Shown here piece after piece: positions 2,556 through 32,540 of a DNA stretch of 63,305 bases. The position numbers and the translations under genes were made by a program. Each line of letters begins with the position of its first letter. The first letter of the stretch is position 1. The stretch covers positions 1 through 63,305 of the IMG/VR virus record IMGVR_UViG_3300048592_001022, one strand, 5' to 3'. The notes under the pieces are model-generated. The model had not been told where the DNA came from, did not search any database, and saw nothing but the letters and a program-made list of their open reading frames with translations. The DNA comes from a virus.

Positions 2556-3407
2556 TCAGATCAGCTTCAAATACTCCAAAGCTTCTTCGAGAATTTTTCG
2601 CATATCATCGTTTATTTCCGGCCTTTGCTTATAAAACTCCGTGAGTTTTGTTCTCATGACATACTTTCGAGGGCTCGGTTTTGCAGAAGCGCCTTTTCGC
2701 TCTACCAATCTATTCTTGATAGCTGCAAAAATCTCTTCATCTGAATCGAATGACTTCTGAACAAACTCGTGAAGTACGATTCGTAATGATAGTTTGTCTG
2801 AATTTTCGCGAATGAGAGACTTAATTTCATCACCCCATTCAGCCATTTTCAGGTAACGCTTCACAGTCTTTTCATTTCGCTCAAAATGACTACTAATTGC
2901 GTCAACGCTCCAGCCTTGCTTGGCAAGTTCACCATAGCCATCGGCAACATCGAGAAAGTGAAGTTCATCGCGGTTTAAGTTTTCGGCAAGTGCTGCACTT
3001 GTACTTTGAGATGAATTTCTATTTTGAAGGAGAAGACATGGGATTTTTTCAATCCCGAGAAGCTTTAATGCTCTAATTCTGCGATGGCCTGCTAAGCAAA
3101 CAAGCTGGTAAGACTTTTCAGTCAGGCGAAGCTCTACAACGGCATTCTGTAGAAGTCCATTCTTTCTAATAGACTCAACCAAAGCCTTAAATTTCGCTGA
3201 ATCTTCATCAATTGGATCTTTTCTAATGTTCTGGCTAATGTCGATATCTGTAATATTTAGGACAACTATCTTGCCTATAAGTCCCAGAAGTTTTTCAAGC
3301 TTCGAGTCGTCATCATTAGTCTGCGCATCTGACATCTGTTGACCGATACTCTTGAAAGAATTCTCAATTCTCTGATCCACTTTTCTCTTTTGATTTGCTA
3401 CTGCCAT
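2556..3407 (-). CDS. parB: ParB-type partition protein
   Basis: This is a 283-residue centromere-binding CTPase-type ParB. The ParB/Srx fold spans about residues 50-150 with the arginine-rich box LAGHRRIRALKLLG (105-118) and the AENLNRDEL segment (141-149). A helix-turn-helix follows at about 166-188 (SVDAISSHFERNEKTVKRYL). It should load on a parS-like site and stimulate ParA to segregate plasmid copies. It sits 64 bases downstream of parA, and the gap holds a perfect 16-base palindrome (3426-3441), a plausible binding site. Family assignment is secure; the specific centromere is inferred. Confidence 0.9.
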   Translation of the reverse strand: MAVANQKRKVDQRIENSFKSIGQQMSDAQTNDDDSKLEKLLGLIGKIVVLNITDIDISQNIRKDPIDEDSAKFKALVESIRKNGLLQNAVVELRLTEKSYQLVCLAGHRRIRALKLLGIEKIPCLLLQNRNSSQSTSAALAENLNRDELHFLDVADGYGELAKQGWSVDAISSHFERNEKTVKRYLKMAEWGDEIKSLIRENSDKLSLRIVLHEFVQKSFDSDEEIFAAIKNRLVERKGASAKPSPRKYVMRTKLTEFYKQRPEINDDMRKILEEALEYLKLI

Positions 3408-3425
3408 GCTTCTTCTTCTCCGATT

Positions 3426-3441
3426 GGGATACGCGTATCCC
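3426..3441. promoter_or_regulatory. 16-bp perfect palindrome, candidate parS or partition operator
   Basis: GGGATACGCGTATCCC reads the same on both strands and lies in the short gap between the parA stop and the parB start. A 16-base palindrome with a central CG step has the size and symmetry of ParB sites, although the sequence is not the chromosomal parS consensus. It could also be an operator for the partition genes. Confidence 0.5.
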
Positions 3442-3471
3442 GGCTTAAGTATTCAAATCCAAAGGATATTT

Positions 3472-4359
3472 TCAAAGCTCGACTTGCACTTCAATGTCTG
3501 GCGCTGGCTTGGCACTTCTCAAGGCATCGATATCGACTGGCTTTGCCGTCCGGCCTTGTCTACGTCCCCGCAACGCAGGTAACATCTCGCCAGCTAATGC
3601 TGAATACGCAACAGCAACAGGCGAGTCCTTGCGATAGAGATGCAAGCTCATGCTCCTCGAAGAGGCACTCGACACTTGCCTGCTCCTCGGTATAGTTGTT
3701 TTAAAAACATGGAAGTTTGCTTCTTTGGCGATCTCTCTCAATTTCCTCTCGTATACTTCGTGGGTCGCCATCTGCTTATCGATATTCGTCACAAGACAGC
3801 CAAGGAAGGTAAGCGTCGGGTTATGCCTCTTCTTCATGGCCTGGACAGCCGCAAAAACATTCGCCAGACCATCTACTGGATCCTTTTCAGGAAATAATGG
3901 AACAATGTAGTAGTGCGCCCCCACAATTGCCGACTGAAAGAAGACATGTCTTTTTCCTGGCCCAAGATCCACTATGACGGCAAAGTATTCTTTGACCTCT
4001 GGACAGTCCATAAGGATCTTCAACAAGAAAAATTGGTTTGGATGTCCAACCATGGATTGGTTGTACTCATCCATTCTATCGTCAGCGCAAAGCAGATCGA
4101 CGCCAGGAACATTCGTTGACACCCTGATCTTAGTTAGAGGCCACTCGTTTGCAATCGCAGCAAAAAGTGTTCTGTCTTCTTTAGCAAGAGCTGGAATGTC
4201 AGCACCCAACAATCTGGATGCATTCGCTTGCGAATCAAAGTCAACAACCAGCACACGTCTTCCAAGTAAAGAAAGAGCCGATGCTAAATTAACGGCTGTC
4301 GTAGTTTTTCCAACCCCGCCCTTATCATTCGGAAGCGCGATTATGTTTGGTCCAGACAT
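3472..4359 (-). CDS. parA: ParA-type partition ATPase
   Basis: This 295-residue P-loop ATPase has the deviant Walker A motif KGGVGKTT at residues 13-20 with the signature lysine at 13. The switch sequence VVDFDSQAN follows near residue 40, and VIVDLGPG near 130 is the Walker B region. It lacks an N-terminal helix-turn-helix, as in short type Ib/chromosomal-like ParAs. With ParB encoded just downstream it should drive segregation of a low-copy replicon. The start is the first ATG, followed immediately by the P-loop strand. Confidence 0.92.
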   Translation of the reverse strand: MSGPNIIALPNDKGGVGKTTTAVNLASALSLLGRRVLVVDFDSQANASRLLGADIPALAKEDRTLFAAIANEWPLTKIRVSTNVPGVDLLCADDRMDEYNQSMVGHPNQFFLLKILMDCPEVKEYFAVIVDLGPGKRHVFFQSAIVGAHYYIVPLFPEKDPVDGLANVFAAVQAMKKRHNPTLTFLGCLVTNIDKQMATHEVYERKLREIAKEANFHVFKTTIPRSRQVSSASSRSMSLHLYRKDSPVAVAYSALAGEMLPALRGRRQGRTAKPVDIDALRSAKPAPDIEVQVEL

Positions 4360-9900: not shown

Positions 9901-10863
9901 CGCAACCCGCTGCTGCTGCGCCGCCAGCTCAGCTTTCTGGGAATCGCTCAGCTCGCCGGACATGGACCTGCGCATGCGTGAGAGCTCGCCCGTGAGTTTT
10001 CTATGCTCGGCTGTGGCGGTCTGGACCGCCGCAGTTGCTGATCGGGACCGGGCCTCATAGACGCTAAGGCCATTGGCGGCATCCAGGGCCCTCTGCTTTT
10101 CCAGATCGAGCGAGCGGGTTAGGCGTTCAACTTCGCGATGAGTCGTAGCTTTTGCTGCTGCCGCCAGTTTTGCCTCATCACGAAGCCTTGCCAGTGCTGC
10201 CCGCTGCTCGGCGGTCGGTGCCGCCAGCTTTTCCATGGCGATCCGCTCGCGGTCGTACTCAGCACGCAGCTGCGAATGTCTTTCCGTGGCTGACTTTGCC
10301 ACATCCTGGGCTCTGGTTAGGGAAGCCTCCTGCTCACGGATCCGCGCATTCAATTTTTCAACGGACTGCCGCTTTTTCTCCAGAGCCCGCGCTGCCATGG
10401 AGGCTTCCTGGCCTGCCGCACGTAGTGCATTCCTGGAGCCGTCCGCAGCTGCCTTGAGCTTCTGCAGCGCTTCCACCTGTGCTGCCGTAGGCTGGGCAGC
10501 CTGCTGCAGAGTAGCCTGAAGCCTGCGAAGATTTTCATTGAGAAGCTGATGCTCCTGCCGTGCGGCAGCAACCTTCTGCCTCGCTTGGTCGATGGCAGCT
10601 GTATGGGCCGCCTCAGCAGCAACAGCAGCCTTCAGCTTCGCATTGACCTCGTCCAGCTCCTTGCCTTTTTTGCCAAGCTCCGCGTTCAAAGCACTTACAT
10701 TGTCCCGTGCCTTCTTCAGACCCTCAAGGTTTGCAGCTGAATTTTTGAGGTTACGAAGCGATTTGTTCAGATCCTTGATCTTCTCGTCAGCCGATGCAAA
10801 CGTCGAATTGAACGCAGTATCGAAAGCTGCGCGGATCTTAACGCTGACCTGTCCCTTGCTCAC
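6961..10863 (-). CDS. T: Tail tape-measure protein
   Basis: The 1300-residue product is the longest in the window. Residues about 15-440 are an alanine-, lysine- and glutamate-rich coiled coil. Residues about 445-640 match the TP901-type tape-measure core (FEKAMVRVKAMSG, LGASTIYTAREVADAQNELA). Hydrophobic segments occur near 950-990 and 1085-1120, as expected for a protein delivered to the host membrane during DNA entry. It follows the E/E' chaperone cistrons directly. Its length should set the tail length. Confidence 0.95.
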   Translation of the reverse strand: MSKGQVSVKIRAAFDTAFNSTFASADEKIKDLNKSLRNLKNSAANLEGLKKARDNVSALNAELGKKGKELDEVNAKLKAAVAAEAAHTAAIDQARQKVAAARQEHQLLNENLRRLQATLQQAAQPTAAQVEALQKLKAAADGSRNALRAAGQEASMAARALEKKRQSVEKLNARIREQEASLTRAQDVAKSATERHSQLRAEYDRERIAMEKLAAPTAEQRAALARLRDEAKLAAAAKATTHREVERLTRSLDLEKQRALDAANGLSVYEARSRSATAAVQTATAEHRKLTGELSRMRRSMSGELSDSQKAELAAQQQRVAAAEKAIAAARAEQTAAVATQKTYQAAAEKSGGTASILAREQKNLSSTVEATNSQITKATASVKQYETALEKAGVDVKNVTAAEEKLNSTIARQSTSLSTAKSARRMSDRASELRSEALGHSAFTLGYGYIFTAPLREAIEFEKAMVRVKAMSGANAQEFKRLKEQARDLGASTIYTAREVADAQNELATAGYRTNDIIAVMPSMLALAESSMTSLARTAEITSEVLQGFNIDVSQMARVGDALTAAYTGSASSLESLGEMLKYVAASAVDVGSSLEQTLAASSVLHNSGVKGSMAGTAMRAIFLRLAKPPKELRRVLEEMHISTKDAAGNMRDWMDIIGDMNRAMKGVGSAKRSAVSKALAGEEHAPSASILFRSQADGSLKLSQRTLELAPAYNATAKSLLKMPDADLRAAADSLGVKFNRAMSGGGIAAAIAGSLKGLKGSAAEAQMQKIFGSLKLAPKLEDMKAEEFVGNGKGVDAALKRLNISRTKALGGTKSADELTSEIKTQIQTLPLEEKLKYVELFFSKTRLGISDLMKEFSKSGKNVDQLIQALNETQNMEKIKKELSASTAKELGEISGGFNDIMITFGEAFIPVLREMMVWLKPILNGFGEWLKANQGVAKVIMQTVGALFAFSAAMAIGKLALSGFFTLGAGFMNLKRAWDFGFGKDRLGRKAAGKAWDVLKDTDWKGVGRNMSLGMKSVKRRMGSALKSGLGFAGKGLRGGWGLAKNLGKMGLQGIKAGAGAAASGLGSLMSMARAAGGALLAMGPAGWAITAVITAIGVGGYLIYKNWATIKPWLLKTWESIKAYFVDLWVRVAGVVSTAWGWIKEHMSWHPVVYIAKNWEKLIGMFKTVYEKIKPYISKIFPTDDTEIKVSGEKPEEPGFLTRLFGGADEGGPSMLDNPLKKISGMMSQPDLPNTEKAASGGSLNQKNIITVTNTFTMTGVQEPRQVANKIANEVRYAFQKVPSFNLFDPVEVS

Positions 10864-20177: not shown

Positions 20178-21400
20178 GCTGTCCTCCGAACCTTGATGCC
20201 GTCGACTTTTTCCGCGATAGCGAGGATTGCATCCTGCTCGGCATCGAGACCCTTCGCATCCTCCTTTGGAGGAACATCGAGGCCAGCGAATGTCTTATCA
20301 AACGCCTTTCTCGGATCTTCCTTGGTCTTGGGTGGATTGGTCTTTTCCTCGATAAGGATTTGAAGAGCCGCTTCCTTGATATCTGCCCCAGACTCGATGA
20401 GCTGAGTGCAGAATTCCTCCGACACTTTGCCTTCTGCGAGCTTTCGGATCGATTCCACTCGCTTTTTTTCGACAAGTGCAGACTTTTGAGCCTGCTCTGC
20501 ACCCAGTTTCATGAAATGTGCGGCCACATCCGGGTATTTCCCGGCAATAAGCTCCGCTGTAATTGCTTCGTTCTCCACTTTCATGGCTCCATATTTTGAA
20601 ATTACGTTTTCAAGCGTCGATACTTCGTCGATTATGCCCCGCTCCTGGGCAGCCTTGCCCACAAACACCGCGCCCTGTCCAAATTTCGCAAGTACTTCAG
20701 CTGGGCTGATTCCCCGATTCCGTGCGACTTTCGAGACAAAGACCTCGGCCAGCCCGTCGATCACGGATTGAATCTCTTTTTTTCCTTCGTCGGAGTCTGG
20801 TGCCGGGTTCTTGTTCGGTGATTGGCTGGAACGGAAAGTGATCACACCCGGCTCTTTATCCGTGCGGACAGCGGACTGCACCCCAATGCTTCCAAGGATC
20901 GCTGAGTCGGAGGCATAGATGCGATCCGAGGCGCTTGCGATCCAATATGCTGCAGACGCACCCGTGCCGCCCACATAGGAAACGATTGGCTTTTGGCCGC
21001 GCGCTTCATGGATGGCGTCCGAAAGCTCCGAGCAGCCGTTGGCATCGCCACCCGGGCTGTCGACATCGAGCACGATCGCTTTTACGTCGGGCGATGAGAC
21101 CATCTCGTGGAGATCACGTCGGAGCATTTCATAGGAAGTAGCGCCACAAATCTCGGTCATGAGATTTGCGCGTTTGAATAGAGGACCACGGACCGGGATG
21201 ATTCCCACCCCGCCCCGGATTGTAGCTCGCTCGGCTGATTTCATCCTGGTTCCTCGGATCTTCTCCAAGGCTGAGATGTCGTCCATGGATTGCCGTTCGA
21301 CGATTTGAATCATCTCGCGCAGGGCCTCTTCAGTGATGGCCCATTGAGTATTCAGGATGGCATTTAAGGCGAATGACACGATTAACCCCGCAGTTAACAC
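20174..21400 (-). CDS. C: Head maturation protease with C-terminal scaffold (lambda gpC family, peptidase S49)
   Basis: The 408-residue protein has an SppA-like serine protease domain: ILNTQWAITEEAL near residue 15, AIVLDVDSPGGDANGCSEL near 110, and SYVGGTGASAAYWIASASD near 140 with the expected catalytic serine. Residues about 270-400 are charged and helical, like the Nu3 scaffold. The start is a GTG at 21400 or 21379. The 5' coding sequence contains one copy of a 24-base motif repeated inversely at 27134. Confidence 0.9.
   Translation of the reverse strand: MLTAGLIVSFALNAILNTQWAITEEALREMIQIVERQSMDDISALEKIRGTRMKSAERATIRGGVGIIPVRGPLFKRANLMTEICGATSYEMLRRDLHEMVSSPDVKAIVLDVDSPGGDANGCSELSDAIHEARGQKPIVSYVGGTGASAAYWIASASDRIYASDSAILGSIGVQSAVRTDKEPGVITFRSSQSPNKNPAPDSDEGKKEIQSVIDGLAEVFVSKVARNRGISPAEVLAKFGQGAVFVGKAAQERGIIDEVSTLENVISKYGAMKVENEAITAELIAGKYPDVAAHFMKLGAEQAQKSALVEKKRVESIRKLAEGKVSEEFCTQLIESGADIKEAALQILIEEKTNPPKTKEDPRKAFDKTFAGLDVPPKEDAKGLDAEQDAILAIAEKVDGIKVRRTA
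21369..21392 (-). repeat. 24-bp inverted repeat, copy 1
   Basis: The minus strand here is identical over 24 bases to the plus strand at 27134-27157 (core GGGGTTAATCGTGTCATTC). This copy lies in the first codons of the protease gene. The two copies face each other across the portal, terminase and regulator genes. Confidence 0.8.
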
Positions 21401-21998: not shown

Positions 21999-22353
21999 GT
22001 ATTTCCTCCAGATAGGCCTTTCTGTATCAGGCAGTCGGAAAAAAAAGCCTTCGCCTTGAATTGTTTTTGTAAACCTACAGTATCATTAATTTATTGTTCT
22101 GACAAAGGGTTGAGATTGTATCAGTGGCGATTCGAGCAGGGACTAACACTTGGCAATATTTCAGTTGGATGGACTGGCAAGTGAGATCGCCCGCGAAAGA
22201 AATCCGCACTGCTTCGTCATAAGCAGAAAAAACAAGCTATATATTCCTATTTTGCAAAAGTGAAATCTGGTATGTTCAATGAACAAATCTGCTGAAAATA
22301 GTTATTGCTGACTATTGATTGAAAAAAATTTCACATTTTTGGAGAAGATTTTT
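21999..22353. other. AT-rich divergent region between CZB and response regulator genes
   Basis: These 355 bases hold the leaders of both divergent cargo genes, with GGAGG before the CZB start and GGAG before the regulator start. I saw no clear gene, operator palindrome or sigma-70 consensus pair. Confidence 0.4.
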
Positions 22354-22773
22354 ATGACTAGTCACAAAATTCTATTCGTAGACGATGATATTCACATACT
22401 GGAAACCATTGGAGAACTACTGGCATCTTTTGGATTCGACACCATGAAAGTATGTAATGCTGAATCGGCCATTGAAATCTTGAAAGGTATAAAAGTCGAT
22501 GCTGTGCTGACAGACCTCATAATGCCAGGAATGAGCGGACTAAGTTTCGCAAATAGCGTCGCTGAAAGCCAACCCGGCATCCCGATTGTGATTTACACTG
22601 GGGCGGATATCGGCAATTTCCAAGTTTCCCTCTCAAACATACATTCTGTACTAAAAAAGCCGGTTTCTCCACCGATCCTCATCCAAACATTGCAAAGAGC
22701 GATCTCTGAATCGAGATCATCCAGCAATAAATACAAATTGGAGACATCAAAACCAATATCAGGCAAATCTTAA
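22354..22773 (+). CDS. Single-domain response regulator (CheY-like)
   Basis: I chose the ATG at 22354 after GGAGAAG; the product is 139 residues. It has the acidic pocket FVDDD (residues 8-12), the phospho-acceptor Asp54 in LTDLIMPGMSG, a VIYTGAD switch threonine and the LKKPVSPP lysine near 105. There is no output domain, only a short serine-rich tail, so it probably acts by protein contact on motility or signalling. It is divergent from the CZB gene and lower in GC than the head genes. Confidence 0.9.
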   Translation: MTSHKILFVDDDIHILETIGELLASFGFDTMKVCNAESAIEILKGIKVDAVLTDLIMPGMSGLSFANSVAESQPGIPIVIYTGADIGNFQVSLSNIHSVLKKPVSPPILIQTLQRAISESRSSSNKYKLETSKPISGKS

Positions 22774-29117: not shown

Positions 29118-29411
29118 TCATTCTTCAAAGTAAATCATCCCTGCATTCCACCAACGCCCCACTGTGTTCAGCTCTTTTGTGGGATAGAAACTCTCATAGT
29201 TGCGACCAACTTTTCGCCTTTCTGGCTCAATCAGGCGATTGAGAGCCTTGCTAACAGCCACTTTGCTCAGGCCCGTTTTCTCGGCAATTTCAGTCAGGGA
29301 CCAGCCACCTTGCTTGTATGCGTAGCTTTCCAGATCCCCAACCCATTCCCCGTAGGGACGACCACCGCTGCCCTCTCTGGGCCGATCTTTCGACAATCTT
29401 CCAATCAGCAT
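29118..29411 (-). CDS. Winged/helix-turn-helix DNA-binding protein
   Basis: The 97-residue protein carries a clear helix-turn-helix at about residues 37-60 (WSLTEIAEKTGLSKVAVSKA). It is first in the 29411-27700 gene set and so is a candidate regulator of this accessory region. The operon is probably read from the minus-strand operator promoter centred near 29805. Confidence 0.7.
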   Translation of the reverse strand: MLIGRLSKDRPREGSGGRPYGEWVGDLESYAYKQGGWSLTEIAEKTGLSKVAVSKALNRLIEPERRKVGRNYESFYPTKELNTVGRWWNAGMIYFEE

Positions 29412-29412
29412 C

Positions 29413-29488
29413 TTGACCTCAACAATCCCTTAAGATAGGCTTTCCCCACATTTTGTTATGTGGGGCCGCTTTATGAGCGGCCTTTTTT
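29413..29488 (+). ncRNA. Possible short RNA with terminator
   Basis: TTGACC (29413-29418) and TAGGCT (29436-29441) at 17-base spacing precede two adjacent hairpins: CCCCACAT/ATGTGGGG (29444-29465) and GGCCGCT/AGCGGCC (29464-29482). The second ends in TTTTTTA. The RNA would be only about 45 bases. Confidence 0.35.
29464..29488 (+). terminator. Rho-independent terminator
   Basis: A seven-base-pair GC stem with a five-base loop is followed by six T residues on the plus strand. It faces away from the accessory operon start. Confidence 0.7.
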
Positions 29489-29531
29489 ATTTCTCACGCC
29501 TCGAAAATATCGTCACTTCAATCTTAATCAC

Positions 29532-29560
29532 TTTACAAAGTTAACGCGTTAACTTAGAAA
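29532..29560 (+). promoter_or_regulatory. Operator-containing promoter 1 (sRNA copy 1)
   Basis: TTTACA, a 17-base spacer and TAGAAA read on the plus strand. The spacer contains GTTAACGCGTTAAC (29540-29553), so a bound repressor would occlude polymerase. It drives the small RNA that follows. Confidence 0.65.
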
Positions 29561-29647
29561 TGTATTTGTGTTCAGGAAATACCTGGACGGGCATGTGAGT
29601 AGCAAGCCTCACGCGGACCCTGATGGGCGGGGGAATCCGTTCTTTTT
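29532..29647 (+). repeat. 116-bp inverted repeat, left copy
   Basis: This is identical to the minus strand at 31674-31559 except for two substitutions (29607 and 29622). The unit spans promoter, operator, structured transcript and T-run. Confidence 0.9.
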
Positions 29648-29648
29648 T
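29567..29648 (+). ncRNA. Structured small RNA, copy 1
   Basis: The predicted RNA of about 82 bases starts just after promoter 1. It folds as CAGG/CCTG (29573-29585), GTGAG/CTCAC (29595-29612) and a terminator-like stem CGGA..TCCG enclosing CCC/GGG (29614-29639), then a T-run. Both differences from copy 2 fall in hairpin loops, which supports selection on RNA structure. It has no open frame of note. Confidence 0.6.
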
Positions 29649-29789
29649 ATGCCCTGCTCTTGGACTCCCACGGTTTGCCCTGAAATTTGAGACTTCAGCC
29701 CGTTTGGCCTTCACTCAGATTGTGACTTGCCGCTTCGATGCGACATATGTACTCAAAATTTCCGGCTTTTCCCTCCCTTCCTAAGAATA

Positions 29790-29818
29790 GTTCTAAATTA
29801 ACGCGTTAACTTTGTAAA
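29790..29818 (-). promoter_or_regulatory. Operator-containing promoter 2
   Basis: On the minus strand TTTACA, 17 bases and TAGAAC flank a one-base variant of the operator (29797-29810). It points toward the 29411-27700 gene set. Confidence 0.6.
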
Positions 29819-29845
29819 GGGGAATTGCTTCCCCTTCCCTTTATT

Positions 29846-30103
29846 TTAGTTGATGGTTTTCCGTGCTTCTCTGACCACTACCTCGCGCAAGCGAGACCGG
29901 AGATGGTCCCGCAGGTCAACCACGTCCATGAATGGCTCTTCGCATTCATCCAGGGAATCGTCGGTTATGATGTCTTGCCGCTCCAAACATATCTGCAGAA
30001 CTTCACGCACGGACAGCCTGCTACAAATCGAATTGCAAACTTCCCACCGTTTGGACATAGGCACGCGCTTGCAATAGCTAAGCAGAGTTTCATAGGTCAG
30101 CAT
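29846..30103 (-). CDS. Small hypothetical protein, antirestriction operon
   Basis: I chose the ATG at 30103 after GGAGGAG, giving 85 residues (MLTYETLLSYCKRVPMSKRW). The C-terminal half is acidic (DDSLDECEEPFMDVVDL). It overlaps the preceding gene and ends the ArdA operon. No family was recognised. Confidence 0.65.
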   Translation of the reverse strand: MLTYETLLSYCKRVPMSKRWEVCNSICSRLSVREVLQICLERQDIITDDSLDECEEPFMDVVDLRDHLRSRLREVVVREARKTIN

Positions 30104-30503
30104 AGGCGTGCTCCTCCATTTTAACGAAACCCTGAGCAGCAATGTTCTGCAGCCAAGTTGTAAGGAAAGCATTCTGCTCTTTCTGCCTGCGTGGCCAGAA
30201 GCTTTTGCGGTCTTCTGTGTATACCGGAATCGCGTGCATGCCTGCGTGCTGAATGGAAAGCGCTTCAATCGTCCCGTCTTTTACTTCCAAAATCATTTCC
30301 GGGTCTACCATCAGATCCCCGTTGCAACTGTACCAATGAGCCATTGCAACAAGAATTCGACCGTTTCCTCGTTCGATGGCTTCGACGCTCAAAGGCATAT
30401 AGCCAGAAGATTCCAGACGCGTGTATGACTTGATCTGTTCATAATTCCGAATACCAAGAATATTGGCAAATCGTTTGAAATTTCTCTCGTATACTGTCGT
30501 CAT
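30090..30503 (-). CDS. DUF6908-like protein
   Basis: The start is the ATG at 30503 (MTTVYERNFKRFANILG) with GAGG six bases upstream; an alternative ATG at 30515 overlaps the ardA stop. Residues ESSGYMPLSVEAIE and AHWYSCNGDLMVDPEMILEV resemble the DUF6908 family, common beside antirestriction genes on plasmids. The exact role is unknown. Confidence 0.65.
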   Translation of the reverse strand: MTTVYERNFKRFANILGIRNYEQIKSYTRLESSGYMPLSVEAIERGNGRILVAMAHWYSCNGDLMVDPEMILEVKDGTIEALSIQHAGMHAIPVYTEDRKSFWPRRQKEQNAFLTTWLQNIAAQGFVKMEEHAYADL

Positions 30504-30511
30504 GATTGACC

Positions 30512-31003
30512 TCATGGGTAGTAGAAAACACCATCATCTGTTTCAAGATATCCAAGACTTTTCAGGTAGAATCCATAGGCGTCGGCATCAATGTAATCAG
30601 CCAAGTACGCGTTAAACTCTCCCATAACCCCGCTCGCAAGGTAAAGAATCGCCACTTCCGTGAGACCCATTCCCTCGTAGTAGACCACGCTATCAAACAG
30701 TTCCAGAGCCGAGGATAGCGTGCATTTTTTGTGCTGTATCAGGTAGAAAAGTCTTGCTGTATCAAAGTCCGAGAAGCCCTTCAGAATGCGGACCTGTTCA
30801 TTCAAAGTGAAAATATCGCAATCTTCGTGGACCAGTCCCGTATCGTCATCGTCCCACATGCTTAGCACAACTTCGCCCGTGCTTTTGGCTCGAATCTCTT
30901 TCATTGCTCGGGCCAACTCTGTGCTGGTTGTGGGCAAAACAATCCATCTATCGAGCATAAAGCCAAGGTTTGCGGCTTCCCGGTTTGCTATACAGACCCG
31001 CAT
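30512..31003 (-). CDS. ardA: ArdA-type antirestriction protein
   Basis: This acidic 163-residue protein has an ArdA-like pattern: RWIVLPTTSTELARAMKEI, then FTLNEQVRILKGFSDFDTAR, ALELFDSVVYYEGMG, and a YLADYIDADAYGFYLKSLG end. ArdA proteins mimic bent B-DNA and block type I restriction enzymes. GGAGGAATT precedes the ATG. It sits in a four-gene operon behind operator promoter 3, between the two small-RNA copies. Assignment is by pattern, not alignment. Confidence 0.75.
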   Translation of the reverse strand: MRVCIANREAANLGFMLDRWIVLPTTSTELARAMKEIRAKSTGEVVLSMWDDDDTGLVHEDCDIFTLNEQVRILKGFSDFDTARLFYLIQHKKCTLSSALELFDSVVYYEGMGLTEVAILYLASGVMGEFNAYLADYIDADAYGFYLKSLGYLETDDGVFYYP

Positions 31004-31014
31004 AATTCCTCCGT

Positions 31015-31260
31015 TTAGTGCAAAGCTACAGCGAAGAGATCGCCGTCCTGCTCAAGACGCCATCTGACACCATTCTTGTCAATATACACTGCGTGCTGCA
31101 TCACTTCGTCCCAGGCTTCCCAATAGTCGGGCGTATCTGCATCTCGAAGCGCCAAGTAATCATTCGTATCAAGGCCCCAGCTGGGCAGGTCGAAAATATC
31201 AAAGAATGTTGCTGGTAAGTTGGTACCCCAGAATCCATCAATCAAAAGTACGCGGTCCAT
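31015..31260 (-). CDS. Small acidic protein, first gene of ardA operon
   Basis: The 81-residue product (MDRVLLIDGFWGTNLPATFF) is rich in aspartate and tryptophan (DADTPDYWEAWDEVMQ). TGGAG precedes the ATG. Its composition would fit another nucleic-acid mimic, but this is a guess. Confidence 0.65.
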   Translation of the reverse strand: MDRVLLIDGFWGTNLPATFFDIFDLPSWGLDTNDYLALRDADTPDYWEAWDEVMQHAVYIDKNGVRWRLEQDGDLFAVALH

Positions 31261-31311
31261 AAAAAAACTCCATTTTGTTAGTGGGTAGGGCTTGCTTGCC
31301 CGACATCAACA

Positions 31312-31340
31312 TTTATAAGTTAACGCGTTAACTTTGTAAA
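31312..31340 (-). promoter_or_regulatory. Operator-containing promoter 3 (ardA operon)
   Basis: TTTACA, 17 bases and TATAAA lie on the minus strand about 50 bases upstream of the first operon gene. The perfect operator GTTAACGCGTTAAC occupies 31319-31332. This is the best -10 match of the five promoters. Confidence 0.75.
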
Positions 31341-31386
31341 TTGGTTTAAACCTGTTTTTGTTGAGATAATGTTAACTAATTTAATC

Positions 31387-31415
31387 TTTTCAAAGTTAAC
31401 GCGTTAGGTTAGAAT
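31387..31415 (+). promoter_or_regulatory. Operator-containing promoter 4
   Basis: TTTTCA, 17 bases and TAGAAT lie on the plus strand with a variant operator ending GG (31395-31408). It is divergent from promoter 3 and reads into a region with three mini reading frames. Confidence 0.55.
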
Positions 31416-31421
31416 TATATC

Positions 31422-31552
31422 AGTAATTGAGAGGAGGGACCTGACCATGAGCTACTAATCTATGCCGCTGAGACGGCATCAGCCATCTGAGTAAAGACCC
31501 GATGCGGTTGAATGCTCAAAAATAAGGGAAAACCGTGGCGGTCCGAGCGCCA
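31422..31552 (+). ncRNA. Leader-like transcript with mini-ORFs
   Basis: Downstream of promoter 4, GAGGAGGGA precedes ATG AGC TAC TAA (31447-31458). Ten-codon (31462-31494) and seven-codon (31502-31525) frames follow, then a GTGGCG/CGCCAC hairpin (31534-31552). There is no larger gene. It may be a regulatory transcript; no terminator T-run was seen on this strand. Confidence 0.35.
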
Positions 31553-31558
31553 CAAAAG

Positions 31559-31639
31559 AAAAAGAACGGATTCCCCCGCCCATTAGGGTCCGCGTGAGAC
31601 TTGCTACTCACATGCCCGTCCAGGTATTTCCTGAACACA
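31559..31639 (-). ncRNA. Structured small RNA, copy 2
   Basis: This inverted duplicate of the RNA at 29567 has the same three stems and a longer T-rich 3' end. Its two base differences lie in loops. It is read toward the ardA operon from promoter 5, so the two RNAs are convergent with the operon between them. Confidence 0.6.
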
Positions 31640-31645
31640 AATACA

Positions 31646-31674
31646 TTTCTAAGTTAACGCGTTAACTTTGTAAA
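31646..31674 (-). promoter_or_regulatory. Operator-containing promoter 5 (sRNA copy 2)
   Basis: TTTACA, 17 bases and TAGAAA lie on the minus strand with the perfect operator at 31653-31666. It is identical to promoter 1. Confidence 0.65.
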
Positions 31675-31730
31675 GGTGAATTTTATAGGAAAATAGCGAG
31701 GAATAGCGGCGAATAGCGCCGCTATATTGA

Positions 31731-32540
31731 TCAGACTTTTTCGCCCCACATCAGGCTGCGGAACGCCTCGCGGACCTGGGCCGGTACCACGCCGTTGCCC
31801 AAGGCTTTAAAGCGGTCCATCCGGTGGGCACACCCATGAGCCACTCGACGAATTCCACATTCAGAAGCCCACCCACCGAATCGCTCAAAGGCGGTGTGTT
31901 GCGATTCTGACCCGAGTGGCCAGGCTTCCGATAGTCCCGTGTAACCGGCGTCGGCCAGAGGTTGTGCCTCGCCATCTGGTGTAGCGATGGACGCCGCGTT
32001 GCCGACTGCCCGGACGATCGGTTGCTCCCTGAATGCGCGGCCATTGGCGTGGGCAGCAAGCAGGAACCATCGGTTTCGGATGTGCGGCGCACCGACTTCT
32101 TGAGCCGATAGCATACGCCACCTGCAATCATACCCTCGGCTGGCAAGTTCTGTGAGAACGCGGTCCAGGCCTCGGGTTCTGATAGCTGGCACATTCTCGA
32201 AGAAGAGGAAGCTCGGCTCGATTTCGTCGGCGAGACGCATGATCTCGAAAAAAAGACCGGAGCGCTTTCCCGCCAGGCCCGCGCCAGCTCCTGCGCAGCT
32301 GATGTCCTGACATGGAAAGCCGCCGTATATAATGTCGACAACTCCCCGCCAGGGCCGGCCATCGAGGGATCGGACATCGTCCCAGATGGGAGCATAGGGA
32401 ATATCGCTATCTGCCATTCGCGATAATAGGACGGACTGAGGATATCGCTCGATCTCACAATAGAGCACTGGTCTGACCCAGGGAGCGAGAGCGATTGAGA
32501 TGCCTCCGTAACCGCTAAAGAGATCCAGGCCATTGATCAT
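31731..32540 (-). CDS. C5-cytosine DNA methyltransferase
   Basis: The 269-residue enzyme has the SAM motif LDLFSGYGGISIAL (residues 5-18), the catalytic GGFPCQDISCAG loop near 75, an FFENV motif near 112, and RNRWFLLAAH (QxRxR-like) near 155. A shortened target-recognition region and the GNGVVPAQVREA motif follow. It probably protects the element's DNA from host restriction. Its start overlaps the preceding methylase gene as ATGA. No endonuclease is adjacent. Confidence 0.92.
   Translation of the reverse strand: MINGLDLFSGYGGISIALAPWVRPVLYCEIERYPQSVLLSRMADSDIPYAPIWDDVRSLDGRPWRGVVDIIYGGFPCQDISCAGAGAGLAGKRSGLFFEIMRLADEIEPSFLFFENVPAIRTRGLDRVLTELASRGYDCRWRMLSAQEVGAPHIRNRWFLLAAHANGRAFREQPIVRAVGNAASIATPDGEAQPLADAGYTGLSEAWPLGSESQHTAFERFGGWASECGIRRVAHGCAHRMDRFKALGNGVVPAQVREAFRSLMWGEKV

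Follow-up and report, generated by a model that had tools for sequence, protein, structure and literature searches.

Five shared operators and an inverted pair of structured RNAs around a phage ardA operon: a candidate anti-defence establishment regulon

Introduction

In anti-CRISPR/Aca operons, an HTH protein is encoded downstream of the anti-defence gene and an inverted-repeat operator lies in the promoter. Antisense RNAs are also known from phages, including P1/P7 c4, P22 sar and lambda OOP. On plasmid p576, the autoregulated repressor Reg_p576 controls several strong promoters, that of an anti-restriction gene included, with a transient burst in a new host, and this regulon has been compared with the Aca repressors (PMC8708921). 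The RNA anti-CRISPRs (Racr) resemble CRISPR repeats (PMC10651486). Additionally, single-strand promoters near ardA have an inverted promoter layout and require entry as single-stranded DNA (PMC11541004; PMC8708921). A review of phage small RNAs (PMC12197685) contains no wording for inverted, two-copy, duplicated or restriction-linked RNAs.

Anti-restriction genes need to be switched on immediately and then off, and the cluster analyzed here is a possible solution with one repressor and five promoters. It lies in a stretch of viral DNA of 63,305 nt (hereafter, the window). A preliminary description of this DNA knew of no described counterpart for its duplicated RNA unit. At the level of the whole system that statement is too strong, because repressor-controlled anti-restriction establishment regulons have been described (p576, PMC8708921; anti-CRISPR/Aca).

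Results

Terminase, portal and tail genes identify the genome as that of a tailed phage, and no relaxase was noticed. ParB and ParA genes are found at 2556–4359, suggesting that the phage may persist as a plasmid; the ParB of the relative L022 is a different version (29% identical). Only two other viral records carrying the operator/RNA cluster were found, L049 (the same virus, 99.99%) and L022 (87–89%). The comparison set consists of two close lineages and one distant record, L088, a phage reached through a terminase search.

The ardA operon is on the minus strand and comprises orf81 (31015–31260; first gene, 99% identical in L022), the ArdA anti-restriction protein (30512–31003), a DUF6908 protein (30090–30515; PF21849, E=2.4e-25) and orf84 (29846–30100; last gene, no family match). 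The ArdA assignment (PF07275, E=2.3e-7) passed the gathering cut-off, with 32.0 bits against 27. A structure model of orf81 gave no significant PDB match. Beyond the operon on the same strand is wHTH97 (29118–29411), a 97-aa winged/helix-turn-helix protein with weak matches to MarR_2, IclR and HTH_3, which we propose as an autoregulated repressor; its structure model (pLDDT 46) was too poor for use. The 50-nt leader 5' of wHTH97 (29412–29461), containing a hairpin (CCCCACAT/ATGTGGGG) and the ribosome site, is 100% identical in L022, where neighboring genes are 78–95% identical; this suggests that wHTH97 may be controlled at the RNA level.

The unit at 29531–29647 recurs inverted at 31675–31559 with 98% identity over 117 nt (E=6e-55) and two substitutions in total, bearing out the duplication first noticed in the preliminary description. 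Each part assigned to it there is also present, namely a promoter with an internal operator, about 80 transcribed bases, three stems and a T-run. In the left copy these are a −35 TTTACA (29532–29537), a 17-nt spacer with the palindrome AGTTAACGCGTTAACT, a −10 TAGAAA (29555–29560), hairpins at 29570–29588, 29595–29612 and 29613–29640, and the run UUCUUUUUU; a separate terminator call also found the terminator. The predicted transcripts, RNA1A (29567–29647, plus strand) and its inverted copy RNA1B (31559–31639, minus strand), point inward with the ardA operon between them and are convergent as first described. They are the same at 79/81 positions. Both substitutions had been placed in hairpin loops, which is correct for 29607 (hairpin 2) and approximately so for 29622 (closing pair or loop of hairpin 3). 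The inverted arms around the cassette extend over 170 nt at 88% identity. Just outside RNA1, the two window copies agree at only 11/22 positions of the adjoining spacer and 21/65 of the 5' part of the next conserved segment (RNA2, below). Thus, the identity stops at the end of the functional unit.

Comparison with L022 showed that promoters are 93–100% conserved (P_A1, P_ardA, P_B1 and P_A2, 95–100%; P_ardA, 100%) and RNA1 is 89–94% conserved, with 76/81 positions identical for RNA1A, whereas other non-coding stretches fall to 60–76%. In hairpin 1, copy B of L022 has a compensatory change from G-C to A-U with both sides altered, and two further pairs show U-A/U-G swaps that retain pairing on the RNA1 strand only. 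The covariation count is small, as its one double change was reached by shuffles in 119/500 cases. Folding energy gave a modest gain over shuffled sequences (z −1.8 and −2.2). We also considered RNA1 as coding sequence and rejected this: a 40-codon GTG frame is open in 4/4 copies, with mostly non-synonymous changes and no Shine-Dalgarno sequence. Searches of RNA1 against Rfam returned no family at the gathering threshold or at E≤10, CRISPR repeats included; a tRNA search of the unit found none, and no relatives of the unit were found in public phages and plasmids. Judged from these comparisons, RNA1A and RNA1B are duplicated, structured, probably transcribed RNAs with an intrinsic terminator. 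Of the earlier phrase "duplicated regulatory RNA", the duplication, the structure and a non-coding nature stand (compensatory pair, strand-specific swaps, GTG frame); "regulatory" goes beyond what these data prove.

The elements might instead mark the two ends of a moron cassette that is mobile or recombining, the RNA being incidental. Indeed, homology to L022 stops exactly at operator B (31681), at the end of which L022 has 1.7 kb of other genes inserted (L022:5732–7410, compared with window 31681–31752), and there are TerL relatives that do not have the cassette. The inverted identity, however, is sharpest exactly from the −35 to the T-run, the structure-preserving changes argue for function, and the left flank is continuous with L022. 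We consider a mobile cassette very unlikely. The earlier statement that the unit is not a transposon end is supported in that we noticed neither a transposase nor a recombinase gene in the ORFs surrounding the cassette, and is qualified by the coincidence of the cassette boundary with the operator at 31681. The 1.7 kb in L022 contain a receiver-domain gene (plus strand) and a 280-aa gene; a related receiver gene is present in the window at 22315–22773.

Each unit described so far makes up one half of a longer element of ~290 nt, of which the window has two inverted copies (29531–29819 and 31386–31675), with orf81, ArdA, the DUF6908 protein and orf84 between the two. The other end of each element bears an additional promoter that opposes the first, along with a further conserved RNA segment, RNA2. 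The palindrome AGTTAACGCGTTAACT occurs in five copies within 2.1 kb (29538 to 31668) and nowhere else in the 63 kb (0.09 expected). All five copies sit in −35/−10 spacers. Two belong to the RNA1 promoters, P_A1 (29531–29560, plus strand) and P_B1 (31640–31675, minus strand), and three further operator-promoters, missing from the preliminary description, are P_A2 (29791–29819, minus strand), which converges on RNA1A and reads toward wHTH97; P_ardA (31313–31340, minus strand; TTTACA/operator/TATAAA), the predicted driver of the ardA operon; and P_B2 (31386–31415, plus strand), a divergent operator-promoter with TTTTCA, a half-site variant of the operator and TAGAAT. Restriction of the five operators to this region, each in a promoter spacer, indicates one regulon. 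As in regulons of the p576 and Aca kind, the same operator is found in several promoters, that of the anti-defence gene ardA among them.

Matches to AAGTTAACGCGTTAACTT in other genomes were in unrelated Bacteroidales/Lachnospiraceae contexts. One Prevotellaceae contig (L070) has three AAGTTAACGCGTTAACTT sites (1473, 3492 and 6230); the promoter regions around them are nearly identical and belong to genes for putative surface proteins. In addition, GTTAACGCGTTAAC palindromes number at least seven in an unrelated phage (L009, L026, L053), where most of them are close to a CTACACTACC motif; these apparently form an independent regulon that shares the core palindrome.

The RNA2 cores at 29660–29728 (RNA2A, minus strand) and 31478–31546 (RNA2B, plus strand) are structured segments of the P_A2 and P_B2 transcripts, respectively, defined from the alignment and pair counts; RNA2A is in the 5' leader of wHTH97. 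RNA2 is kept in both window copies and in L022, has one compensatory G-C/A-U pair, seen in RNA2B, and retains a G-U pair in 4/4 sequences on the RNA2 strand only. P_A2 reads into wHTH97 and P_B2 reads the opposite way. RNA1A and RNA1B are each complementary to both of these transcripts, in cis to one and in trans to the other. Two features of the P_B2 leader (31432–31460, plus strand) are also kept in L022, a run resembling a Shine-Dalgarno sequence and a frame of three codons, ATG AGC YAC TAA. An RNA2 model gave a weak match at 10716–10779 (minus strand) in the tape-measure gene (18.4 bits, E=0.04) that is probably due to chance.

P_B1 lies on the strand of the ardA operon and faces it, and its transcript ends in a terminator, so RNA1B could be an attenuated leader of the operon, expressed by read-through of a regulated terminator, with RNA1A as a copy. 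This is quite unlikely, given that ardA is served by an operator-promoter of its own, 300 nt downstream, that read-through would have to cross P_B2, and that RNA1A is equally conserved yet faces away from any plus-strand gene.

The more distant phage L088 encodes a 31% identical homologue of wHTH97 and has three copies of a different perfect 18-bp palindrome, AACGCGACGCGTCGCGTT (0 expected), all in promoter spacers; a promoter scan recovered one of the three operator-promoters (TTGACA-18-TATTAT). A divergent promoter pair heads a small-gene operon, the first gene of which encodes a DUF2786/DUF7168 protein, and the third operator-promoter separates this operon from the wHTH gene. An inverted repeat pair (58 nt, 79%) immediately follows the outward promoters. 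These RNA1-like units point outward, in contrast to the inward units of the window, and one of them forms the sense leader of the wHTH gene. L088 has three operators as opposed to five, and no T-run follows the RNA1-like unit. Thus, the two arrangements are not simply the same. No relatives of RNA2 were found in L088. In both systems, a plus-strand intrinsic terminator separates the wHTH gene from the RNA element, with no plus-strand gene nearby (29462–29490 in the window, between wHTH97 and element A; L088:434–456). The GGCCGC/GCGGCC stem of the window terminator is kept in L022, and its loop is changed there.

L088 also bears on a reading of the paired promoters of each element as single-strand promoters of the Frpo/ssi type. 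As single-stranded DNA, the element folds its two inverted promoters into one double-stranded promoter (z −5.5 and −6.4), and promoters of this type serve the ardA genes of F and ColIb-P9 (PMC8708921). Nevertheless, two promoters that converge and carry a palindromic operator will pair in this way automatically, and L088 does not have such a pair inside one element. The packaging and structural genes in the window are those of a tailed phage, a group that injects double-stranded DNA. This makes single-strand promoters highly unlikely here.

Given the ParA and ParB genes of the phage, the five palindromes could be taken as parS centromeres. The operators are identical in L022, however, where ParB is only 29% identical and wHTH97 is 94% identical; the site does not co-vary with ParB. 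Furthermore, no ParB was found in L088, which has palindromes of its own, and every site in the window is within a promoter spacer. We rejected a parS identity on the constancy of the operator against a diverged ParB, and regard it as extremely improbable. The same comparison makes wHTH97 a likely repressor. It lies directly downstream of the operator-promoter P_A2 and is the only checked regulator present in the window, L022 and L088; the three others checked were not found in L022, which is weak evidence as this record is a 32-kb fragment. In L088 the regulator and the palindrome have changed together under a constant layout, the best evidence for wHTH97 as repressor, resting on two systems. 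By these comparisons, wHTH97 is most likely the repressor of the five operators.

A covariance search had been proposed in the preliminary description. Built from RNA1 of the window and L022 only and run unfiltered over 2.7 kb of L088, the model ranked the two L088 units as its two best matches, at 11.0 bits (E=0.014) and 5.8 bits (E=0.47). Control sequence (14.6 kb) peaked at 6.7 and 7.6 bits, so only the 11.0-bit unit, covered mainly at hairpin 1, stands out, and the other is background. A hairpin with an RAAUA loop and at least six pairs is confined to RNA1 in the window and in L022; L088 has it at two places, one of which is the exact 5' end of an operator-driven RNA. A third RAAUA-loop hairpin, CCGGGAAATACCCGG with GGAAATACC, is found at 20530–20544 (minus strand) in the late gene region.

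These matches bear on another role for RNA1, that of an RNA-based anti-defence agent made with ArdA. Acting in trans on an RNA-binding defence protein of the host, as a decoy or an inhibitor, it would follow a logic like that of RNA anti-CRISPRs. RNA1 is co-regulated with ArdA, and two near-identical copies raise dosage. The restricted 5' hairpin recurs at the start of the operator-driven L088 RNA, the RNA1 model exceeds its control there, and the orientation to other genes varies between the systems, which suits a trans-acting RNA. Against this, Rfam gave no match, not even to CRISPR repeats, and the second L088 unit is inside the background. We consider such a role possible though rather unlikely. 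A broader form of the proposal is doubtful: that the paired RNAs are anti-defence effectors of a new kind, made from repressor-controlled promoters at entry, with the inverted two-copy layout and a private wHTH/operator recurring in phages as diverged as L088. For RNA1 targets, prediction of which had also been suggested, a crude duplex scan against ~48 translation starts of the phage did not exceed chance; as it joined long gapped duplexes, it is weak evidence.

Discussion

We favor, at roughly one chance in two, a reading of the cluster as an anti-defence "establishment" regulon of a parA/parB-bearing phage, in which wHTH97 is most likely the repressor and RNA1 damps opposing transcripts. 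From the operators, promoters, duplication, conserved stems and complementarity described above, we infer the identity of the repressor, transcription, the timing of a burst on entry and the action of RNA1. In this reading, a single repressor (wHTH97 being the most likely) would occupy the five palindromic operators between −35 and −10. Upon entry into a repressor-free cell, all five promoters would fire, yielding the ardA operon, two copies of the ~80-nt RNA1 and two RNA2 transcripts. Because the P_A2 transcript reads into wHTH97, wHTH97 would accumulate and shut the whole set. Meanwhile, RNA1A and RNA1B may damp the transcripts from P_A2 and P_B2, either through antisense pairing or through collision of polymerases, which would delay the build-up of repressor and lessen outward transcription during the ArdA burst.

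Damping is the most likely job for RNA1 since it converges on, and is complementary to, the P_A2 and P_B2 transcripts. The position of the complementary region, ~150–220 nt from the presumed transcription start and >150 nt upstream of the wHTH97 start, argues against the antisense step and excludes a simple hiding of the ribosome site. With outward units, three operators and no T-run, L088 does not conserve the geometry for an antisense role.

Several known systems share parts of this design. Like the phage antisense RNAs c4, sar and OOP, RNA1 is a short phage RNA opposing control-region transcripts; here there are two inverted copies, each from an operator-controlled promoter of the kind common to the anti-restriction operon. 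The Racr RNAs are likewise short phage RNAs directly behind their own promoter and linked to anti-defence, whereas RNA1 has no CRISPR-repeat similarity (Rfam, E≤10). The Frpo/ssi elements of F and ColIb-P9 are repeated, promoter-bearing inverted repeats beside ardA, and a hairpin duplex holding −35 and −10 can also form here. In contrast, this is a double-stranded DNA phage with spacer palindromes and without the entry of single-stranded DNA that those promoters require, and opposing double-stranded DNA promoters are the simpler reading.

The closest likeness is to the Aca and p576 regulons. With Aca operons the cluster shares an HTH protein gene and an inverted-repeat operator in the promoter of an anti-defence gene; it differs in its five promoters, its inverted RNA pair and an HTH gene behind its own operator-promoter. 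As on p576, one repressor, a role here proposed for wHTH97, would control several promoters including that of the anti-restriction gene. Unlike the phage protein, the p576 repressor is a ribbon-helix-helix protein that binds dual heptamers upstream of −35 on a plasmid, and no paired structured RNAs have been reported for p576. Thus, the kind of regulon is already known, and the paired structured RNA component is new as far as we have searched. The pairing and placement of two predicted, co-induced structured RNAs recur with different sequences in a distant relative, so that an RNA contribution to phage establishment can be tested directly.
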